A program made the translations under genes and the position numbers. This document shows positions 41,652 to 44,020 of a stretch of 60,671 nucleotides of DNA, one piece after another; position 1 is the stretch's first letter; each line of letters starts with the position of its first letter. Location of the stretch: positions 4,128 to 64,798 of the forward strand of contig VXTR01000039.1 in the NCBI GenBank assembly GCA_009837355.1, written 5' to 3'. Below the pieces are notes generated by a model. That model worked only from the letters and a program-made list of their open reading frames with translations, ran no database searches and was not told the origin of the DNA. The DNA comes from Chloroflexota bacterium (GTDB taxonomy: Bacteria; Chloroflexota; Dehalococcoidia; Lucifugimonadales; UBA3495).

Positions 41652-41701
41652 AAATGCCGCTATGCACTTACCTTAGAATCACTGCCAGGGAGTGTGCCAA
41701 G

Positions 41702-42127
41702 ATGGCCGAACAAGACCTGCCCGTGTTCGTGTACGACGAAGTCGAAATCGGCGAAGAACTCGGCTCCTACGAATACCTGCTGACGCAGGAGATGGTTGAC
41801 CTGTACCGCAAGGCGGTGGACGACCCGGACGCGGTTTTCCCAACCATCGCGGTCAAGCACGACGCCACGTCGCTGGCCCTGGCCTACGACGACCAGACCG
41901 GCGGCATCAACGCGGGCAACGAAATCGACCTGCACAATCCGCCGGTGCCCGGCAAGAAAATCCGCGTTACCGGAAGGGTTCACGACAAGTACGTGCGGCG
42001 GGAGAAGCCCTACCTGGTCATCGAGGCTACCGCCACGGACGAGGATGGCCGGCTCATTGAGAAGATGCGCACCTACCAAATCAAGAAACCCGAGGAGTTG
42101 GGCAAAAAATGGCATCCGCAAGGCTAG
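41702..42127 (+). CDS. MaoC-like hotdog-fold protein, partner 1
   Basis: A 141-residue protein with the hotdog-fold pattern: FVYDEVEIGEELGSYEYLLT, DLYRKAVDDPDAVFPTIAVK, NEIDLHNPPVPGKKIRVTGR, YLVIEATATDEDGRLIEKMR. It resembles the FAS1-like dehydratase half of MaoC enzymes. AGGGAG precedes ATG 41702; a longer frame adds 16 residues without a good ribosome site. It overlaps partner 2 by 19 bases. The pair probably forms a heterodimer acting as an enoyl-CoA or hydroxyacyl-CoA hydratase, with substrate unknown. Confidence 0.75.
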   Translation: MAEQDLPVFVYDEVEIGEELGSYEYLLTQEMVDLYRKAVDDPDAVFPTIAVKHDATSLALAYDDQTGGINAGNEIDLHNPPVPGKKIRVTGRVHDKYVRREKPYLVIEATATDEDGRLIEKMRTYQIKKPEELGKKWHPQG

Positions 42128-42531
42128 ACAGCGAAACGCTGCCGGTAATTTCCAAGCACATCACGCAGGACGTCATCAACCAGTTTGAGTCGTGCGGCAT
42201 CCTGAACCGGGCGAACATCCACAACGACCCGGAGCTGGCCGCCAAGCGGCTGGGCACCACCTACGCTATCGCGTCGGGCCGCATGAGCATCGCCTTCTGC
42301 ACGGAGGCCATGCGCAAGTTCGTGGGGGCGGAGGACTTCCACCGCAGCGGCAACGTGAGCCTGAAGTTCCTGCGTCCGGTGAAGCACGGCGACACGGTAT
42401 CAGTGCACGGGCAGGTGAACAGCCGGCAGCCGCAGGACGACGGCAGCACGATGGTCGTGGTTGACGTGTACTGCGAAAACCAGAACGGTGACAAGACGGC
42501 CGTTGGGCAAGCGAGCGCGGTGGTTCGCTAG
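42109..42531 (+). CDS. MaoC-like hotdog-fold protein, partner 2
   Basis: A 140-residue hotdog-fold protein: ISKHITQDVINQFESCGILN, RANIHNDPELAAKRLGTTYA, GRMSIAFCTEAMRKFVGAED, SGNVSLKFLRPVKHGDTVSV. The NIHNDPELAAKRLGT segment takes the place of the MaoC D-x4-H dehydratase motif (here N-x-H-N-D-P), so a hydratase role is reasonable. The shared overlap with partner 1 implies equal production. Confidence 0.75.
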   Translation: MASARLDSETLPVISKHITQDVINQFESCGILNRANIHNDPELAAKRLGTTYAIASGRMSIAFCTEAMRKFVGAEDFHRSGNVSLKFLRPVKHGDTVSVHGQVNSRQPQDDGSTMVVVDVYCENQNGDKTAVGQASAVVR

Positions 42532-42572: not shown

Positions 42573-42929
42573 ATGACTACCGTAGTTGAATACCACGCCG
42601 AAAGGAGTTGGCACTTCCTCGACCTGGTGGACGATGAAGTTGAACGGGGCGAGTTGGAGGAGGCCAGCAACAAGTTGTGGGGCGCGGCCGCTCATGCCAT
42701 CAAGGCAGTGGCTGAGCGCAGGGAGTGGTCCCACGGCTCTCACCGAGATCTAGAGGAAACTGTGCTCCGCTTAGTTGATGACGAGGGCGCCACGCCGGAT
42801 CTATACACATATTACGCGTTGGCAAGCTGGCACCATTCACGCTTTTACGGCGGGCCGCCCAACGCTAACCAAATTCGGCACGGCAAGGGGAAAATGGCCG
42901 AATTCATCCGTATGCTGGAAAATTTGTGA
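42573..42929 (+). CDS. PaREP1-like (HEPN-superfamily) protein
   Basis: A 118-residue helical protein. EEASNKLWGAAAHAIKAVAE followed by RREWSHGSHRDLEETVLRLV and YYALASWHHSRFYGG corresponds to the PaREP1/PaREP8 domain, first known from archaeal repeated families and thought to be HEPN-related. Function is unknown; the family may bind nucleic acid or nucleotides. It stands between the MaoC pair and the selenoprotein gene on the same strand, with 41 bases before it and 69 after it. Confidence 0.7.
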   Translation: MTTVVEYHAERSWHFLDLVDDEVERGELEEASNKLWGAAAHAIKAVAERREWSHGSHRDLEETVLRLVDDEGATPDLYTYYALASWHHSRFYGGPPNANQIRHGKGKMAEFIRMLENL

Positions 42930-42998
42930 GCGAGGGGCCGTCTCTTGCCACCGAAGCGCATTGACCTGTTGAACGACCGCATTACAGGAGCAACCCGA

Positions 42999-43313
42999 AT
43001 GACCATGACCCGTTCCGAGTTCGGCAAAGTTGAAGTGGACATCGTCTATTGCGTGCCTTGAGGCTACCATGGCCTCGCCACGTGGCTGGCGACCGAGTTC
43101 TGGCGTTCGCAAAACGCCGGCGACATTGCGATCAAGCTGACTCCCGCCGACAAGGGCCGTTTGGAGATTTACCTGGACGGCGCGAAGATATTTGACCGCT
43201 ACGACGAGGAAGGGGACGAATATCCCGGCTACAGCAAGGTCAACGAACTGAAGATGGTCATCGCCGAGCGCGTCTTCGACGTGGAAGACGAGATGATGGC
43301 CGCCAACAACTGA
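42999..43313 (+). CDS. SelW/Rdx-family selenoprotein, Sec encoded by in-frame TGA
   Basis: Standard translation hides this gene because codon 21 (43059-43061) is TGA. Read through, it gives a 104-residue Rdx (SelW/SelT/SelH) protein. The N-terminal strand GKVEVDIVYCVP leads to the redox motif Cys18-Val-Pro-Sec21, then GYHGLATWLATEFW, matching the family YCVPCGYxxxATWLAxE with Sec in place of the second Cys. The strand RLEIYLDGAKIFDRYDEEG and a C-terminal helix (VNELKMVIAERVFDVEDEMM) follow. The frame stays open for 83 sense codons after the TGA and ends at TGA 43311-43313. AGGAG (42986-42990) stands eight bases before ATG 42999. A SECIS-like hairpin follows the TGA. The likely role is thiol redox protection in the cytoplasm. 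A pentapeptide gene starts six bases later. Confidence 0.85.
43059..43092 (+). promoter_or_regulatory. UGA-Sec codon and bacterial SECIS-like hairpin
   Basis: After TGA (43059-43061), TCGCCA (43075-43080) pairs with TGGCGA (43087-43092) around the loop CGTGGC. The loop starts 19 bases after the TGA and has G at its second position. This fits the bacterial SECIS rule of a small hairpin 16-37 bases downstream with an early loop G, recognised by SelB. It is read by eye, not computed. Confidence 0.65.
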
Positions 43314-43318
43314 ATGAA

Positions 43319-44020
43319 ATGGCAAACAACGAACACGTAGAAATCATCCGGGCCGGCAAGGGAGCGCTGGAATCCTGGCGGGCGGACAACCCCGAGGGGC
43401 AGCTGGACCTGCGGGCCGCCGACCTGAGCGGGCTGGACCTGGCAGGCGCCGACCTGCGGGGGAGCGACCTGCGCGGCGCGACGCTGGCCGGCGCCAAGCT
43501 CACCAAAGCGAACCTGTCGCGCTGCGACTTGCGGGCGGCCGACTTCACCGGGGCCGACCTTTACGGAGCTACGCTGGCGTCGGCGGAGATGGCCACGGCC
43601 ATCCTGCGCAACGTCAACCTGTTCTGGGCCGACCTGAAGCAGTCCAAGATGCAGGAATGCGTCCTGCAATGGTCTCGCCTGAACCGGGCGTCGTTCCTGA
43701 ACACCGACCTGACCGCCGCCGATTGCAGCCAGACCACGGCCATCGAGGTTGACCTGCGCTCCGCCAACCTGACCGACTCCAACTGGCAGGGAGCGAACAT
43801 GAACGGGGCCGACGTGAGCCGGGCCGTGATGCAGGGAGCGGATTTCACCAACGCCAAAATCCGCGATTCCATGTGGATTATGACCGACCTGCGGGGCGCG
43901 AACTTCAACCGGGCCAGCCTGCACCGCTGCGACATGACCATGGGCAAGTGGGACGATACGACCCAGTTCCCGCCCGGCTTCGACCCGAACCACATCGAAA
44001 ACCGGGTGGACGATTACTAA
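43319..44020 (+). CDS. pentapeptide-repeat protein
   Basis: A 233-residue protein. Residues ~1-30 (MANNEHVEIIRAGKGALESW) form a helical cap similar to that of the pentapeptide-TIR protein at 12337. Residues ~30-220 are repeats of the A(D/N)LxX type: ADLSGLDLAGADLRGSDLRG, then ANLSRCDLRAADFTGADLYG, and so on. They fold as a right-handed quadrilateral beta-helix. No effector domain is attached; the C-terminal WDDTTQFPPGFDPNHIENRV closes the helix. Function is unknown; known relatives mimic DNA, bind gyrase or act as scaffolds. It starts six bases after the selenoprotein stop. Confidence 0.88.
   Translation: MANNEHVEIIRAGKGALESWRADNPEGQLDLRAADLSGLDLAGADLRGSDLRGATLAGAKLTKANLSRCDLRAADFTGADLYGATLASAEMATAILRNVNLFWADLKQSKMQECVLQWSRLNRASFLNTDLTAADCSQTTAIEVDLRSANLTDSNWQGANMNGADVSRAVMQGADFTNAKIRDSMWIMTDLRGANFNRASLHRCDMTMGKWDDTTQFPPGFDPNHIENRVDDY

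Follow-up and report, generated by a model that had tools for sequence, protein, structure and literature searches.

Gene content of the locus

In the window, a stretch of 60,671 nucleotides from a Chloroflexota (SAR202-type Dehalococcoidia) MAG, a predicted selW-like (Rdx) selenoprotein gene of 104 aa was located on the forward strand at 42999–43313. It lies in a region, 42930–43318, for which the ORF listing gives no ordinary forward-strand ORF of at least 80 aa and which separates the ORFs 42573–42929 and 43319–44020. The frame starting at ATG 42999 meets an in-frame TGA at codon 21 (43059–43061), continues through 83 open codons and ends at a terminal TGA at 43311–43313. Translated through the internal TGA, it yields a product of 104 residues, MTMTRSEFGKVEVDIVYCVP-U-GYHGLATWLATEFW..., with the redox motif YCVPUGY (C18-V-P-U21). 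An AGGAG ribosome-binding site can be read in the sequence at 42986–42990 (forward strand), 8 nt before the ATG. The first-pass annotation, made from the sequence without database searches, had described this region as a gene gap hiding an Rdx protein with YCVP-Sec-GY at its redox site; the gap, the coordinates, the length of the product, the 83 open codons past the TGA and the ribosome site were all borne out.

The codon at 42999 encodes Met within the genus. Sister genera begin at the position corresponding to Met3 (43005), a residue that does not vary across an alignment of 19 sequences, and the true start of the gene could be either ATG 42999 or ATG 43005.

The read-through product matched Pfam Rdx (PF10262) with 44.2 bits (E = 2.2e-11, cut-off 22.6) and NCBIfam TIGR02174 (CXXU_selWTH) with 35.3 bits, narrowly above the cut-off of 34.2. 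Against the NCBIfam equivalog NF041051 (SelTWH_Campy) it scored 35.7 bits, below the cut-off of 88. The TGA at 43059–43061 sits exactly on the redox (CxxU) column of the Rdx family. Going by base composition, chance would leave 83 codons in a row open in about 5% of cases, which is not significant by itself; it is the homology, the position of the TGA on the redox Sec/Cys column and the conservation of this TGA, not the run length, that exclude chance. A scan of the window for other read-through frames of the CxxU/UxxC type returned numerous TGA contexts that resemble chance readings out of frame.

An AlphaFold2 model, built on a shallow alignment (pLDDT 66), places a strand (10–16) and then a helix (24–36) on either side of the motif. 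A Foldseek search with this weak model gave no match at E ≤ 0.001. At the profile level, significant matches over the Rdx domain were obtained with the Cys-form Rdx structures 2p0g (E = 1.2e-7), 2obk, 2fa8 and 2oka. In the alignments, 2p0g and 2obk have CxxC, with Cys where the gene described here has Sec.

Genomic neighbourhood

Downstream, a pentapeptide-repeat protein gene (43319–44020, forward strand; Pfam Pentapeptide) begins 5 nt past the selW stop and is found in 22/22 loci; a gene for a DRTGG-domain protein also lies downstream of selW. Upstream lie a gene for a hypothetical protein and a MaoC-like dehydratase gene (42109–42531, forward strand; Pfam MaoC_dehydratas), which together with 41654–42127 forms a conserved pair. 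Most loci whose sequence reaches far enough upstream have this pair next to selW, the distant L071, L076 and L077 among them; near L072–L075 it was not found. The conservation of these neighbours hints at a pathway shared with selW.

Just upstream of selW, at 42573–42929, lies a gene of the PaREP1 family, which is named for archaeal repeats. Some orthologous loci have it at this position and others lack it, a pattern resembling insertion or loss.

It is conceivable, though rather doubtful, that this lineage runs two or three dedicated Sec-dependent SelW paralogues of which the present one has a specific job tied to the MaoC-type pair and the pentapeptide-repeat neighbours, and would represent a functionally distinct SelW branch instead of a generic redox protein.

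Conservation of the in-frame TGA in relatives

The 22 closest genes, from assemblies named as SAR202 cluster, Dehalococcoidia or Chloroflexota MAGs, read YCVPUGY without exception, and the aligned frame contains no further stop in any of them. Further stops breaking the frame in close relatives, which the first-pass annotation had named as a sign of a pseudogene, were absent from this set, and the single TGA is kept in 22/22. Rdx was present in 53 of 60 relatives, and nearly every hit carried exactly one internal TGA. Among 133 Rdx hits from the window and the relatives, a count that includes some genes twice where two loci cover them, 127 were CxxU, two CxxC and one UxxU, and three were without the motif pattern. 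Two or three Rdx paralogues with Sec occur per genome in this Chloroflexota family.

In the phylum as a whole, homologues occur both with the TGA and free of stops. Among order-level relatives, Cys takes the place of Sec in YCTQC and YCVPC forms, and tandem pairs join a YCVPC copy to a YCVPU copy. At L171, L173, L174 and L176–L179, Rdx genes standing in tandem, some 350 bp from each other, combine a YCVPCGY copy with a YCVPU or YCVTU copy. Such pairs represent the Cys/Sec exchange expected for a true selenoprotein, and the question whether homologues carry Cys or Sec at this column, raised with the original prediction, can be answered with both.

In 21 comparisons, pN/pS was 0.085 before the TGA and 0.176 after it. 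The low value past the TGA implies that the downstream part is translated and selected, and purifying selection acts on the protein on both sides of this codon.

A predicted SECIS hairpin

A bacterial SECIS hairpin (UCGCCA-CGUGGC-UGGCGA) was predicted on the forward strand at 43075–43092, 14–31 nt past the TGA, based on bSECIS constraints, covariation and synonymous conservation. It has a stem of 6 bp, a loop of 6 nt (43081–43086) and an energy of −7.9 kcal/mol. The apical loop CGUGGC carries a G at position 2 followed by a U, and lies 19 nt from the UGA. The bSECIS check proposed in the first-pass annotation thus returned a downstream hairpin that satisfies the published bacterial SECIS constraints and has comparative support. 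No bacterial SECIS family of Rfam matched at the site.

The stability of the hairpin is not unusual against expectation (z = −0.77). Without folding constraints, the hairpin has two competitors, a UGA-proximal stem and an alternative pairing, and masking the first 12 nt past the UGA still left it a predicted pairing probability of only about 0.16. Because thermodynamics alone fails to single out the hairpin, the case for a SECIS element rests on comparison.

Over 14 genus-level genes, the degenerate codons 4–7 and 9–11 past the TGA showed zero synonymous change (permutation p = 0.0004). This is the longest synonymously unchanged run in the gene, the remainder of which varies, and a comparison of codons 4–10 past the TGA with that remainder gave p = 0.0003 for the same 14 genes. 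Between genera, the outer stem pairs differ on both sides (TCGCCA/TGGCGA, TAGCCA/TGGCTA and TTGCCA/TGGCAA). This gene's register contained 12 double-change cells, and a second register, found in other paralogues, contained 24. In both, 0/500 shuffles reached the observed pairing, in a test that is biased towards structure since the shuffles ignore relatedness and each sequence was assigned to its register according to how it paired. A bSECIS-type hairpin of at least 4 bp was present in 86/88 Sec forms versus 5/19 Cys forms, the latter coming from few clades, and in this control comparison none was found in the YCVPC forms.

Paralogues with YCWDUGHAGRAAW (e.g. L046, L047 and L094) have their hairpin in a different register, with a UGGAU loop 21 nt past the UGA, whereas the class found in the window has CGUGGC at 19 nt.

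Selenocysteine machinery of the genome

The assembly amounts to 3.25 Mb and is 96.6% complete and 3.1% contaminated. From the presence of a selenoprotein, selA, selB, selC and selD had been expected elsewhere in the genome, and all four were found in the assembly: SelA (556 bits), SelB (354.8 bits, a 690-aa open frame) and SelD (382 bits) all scored over their cut-offs, and a tRNA-Sec (selC) with the anticodon UCA was identified, likewise above its cut-off. SelA was also over the cut-off in 55 of 60 relatives, which indicates that the Sec trait is established throughout the group and does not stem from contamination of one bin. A second Rdx gene, on another contig of this genome, carries a TGA at the same column. 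The selD gene (L023, C39:7224-8144 of the same genome) is likewise predicted to encode a selenoprotein, its in-frame TGA lying at the active site, within HCAGUAAK.

Interpretation and alternative explanations

SelW-like proteins are small thiol/selenol oxidoreductases with a thioredoxin-like fold. The gene at 42999–43313 almost certainly encodes a bacterial protein of this (Rdx) kind, in which the UGA at 43059–43061 would be read as Sec via SelB and the hairpin to give a CxxU site. At this UGA, SelB carrying Sec-tRNA(UCA) would bind the mRNA hairpin at 43075–43092 and deliver selenocysteine in place of termination, producing an active site composed of Cys18 and Sec21. The Sec21 selenol would most likely attack a disulfide, a peroxide or a glutathionylated substrate, and would then be resolved by Cys18.

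A standard gene caller finds only a short ORF here and the region resembles a gap, as would be the case if an Rdx gene had become a pseudogene through a nonsense mutation or had been sequenced wrongly. Either is extremely unlikely given that the identical TGA codon recurs in 22 independent assemblies and in 127 of the 133 hits, that pN/pS stays low past it and that the genome holds the full Sec machinery. The first-pass annotation had judged read-through as Sec far more likely than a pseudogene, a judgement that the Sec machinery, the conserved TGA, the hairpin and the low pN/pS support. Reassignment of TGA throughout the genome to a standard amino acid, for instance Trp (as in code 4), would likewise account for the one TGA read through here, but its probability is close to nil: both the selW gene itself and the upstream gene that ends at 42929 terminate in TGA, the column is Cys and not Trp in stop-free homologues, and the genome has SelB and a tRNA-Sec with a UCA anticodon, with the SECIS-type hairpin conserved downstream. 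To the extent that sequence permits, a pseudogene, a sequencing error and an altered genetic code are all excluded.

The stop could also be leaky independently of Sec, with a truncated peptide of 20 residues as the main product and occasional read-through by a near-cognate tRNA. The competition of the hairpin with other folds leaves room for this. It is nevertheless very improbable, as selection acts on a redox-active residue (the Cys/Sec column), the genome has its Sec machinery intact, and the hairpin, conserved and covarying among the Sec forms, is largely missing from the Cys forms.

Relation to known SelW-like selenoproteins

Read as a Sec-containing protein, the product belongs to an established prokaryotic selenoprotein family, the SelW-like CxxU proteins (PMC1794560, PMC2398784, PMC9312934, PMC13188914), which are textbook and abundant bacterial selenoproteins (PMC1088965, PMC2398784, PMC9312934, PMC13188914). 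An interaction of SelW with glutathione has been reported (PMC1088965). With the described bacterial SelW-like proteins (PF10262, CxxU; PMC1088965, PMC2398784, PMC9312934) the present one shares the family, the size, a single Sec near the N-terminus, the downstream bSECIS and the marine bacterial setting; the differences are at the lineage level only, with two or three Sec paralogues per genome here. Among the selenoproteins of marine bacteria, the SelW family is already known to be the commonest. The family, its motif and its mechanism have been described before, and the gene is an unannotated addition to a known family. Vertebrate selenoprotein W also belongs to the Rdx family and has the CxxU redox motif, as the gene described here does, but it relies on a eukaryotic SECIS in the 3′ UTR, whereas here a short hairpin lies right past the UGA, inside the coding region.

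No paper naming SAR202 and selenoprotein together was found among the open-licence papers searched, and the lineage-level annotation of a SelW-like selenoprotein in SAR202 may be new. In every genome of the group, the selW-like gene will probably be overlooked or cut short by standard annotation. The gene indicates selenium use by these uncultured Chloroflexota and, with Sec and Cys forms side by side and SECIS covariation, provides a clean comparative set for studies of Sec/Cys exchange.

Unusual Rdx genes

At L155/L169 (G055:C10), a Sec Rdx gene precedes another Rdx gene whose motif (RYSLSDGY) contains neither Cys nor Sec. The Rdx homologue L035/L156 (G017:C38:6415-6636) has two in-frame TGA codons, reading YUQQUNY (UxxU), and a good ribosome site upstream; its nearest relative, L157, reads YCAQUNY. 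Since the double TGA was found in one genome only, an error or a recent mutation is possible. Two reviews list SelW-like proteins solely as CxxU. One 6-bp hairpin is present in L035/L156, with its loop 22 nt past the second TGA and 34 nt past the first.
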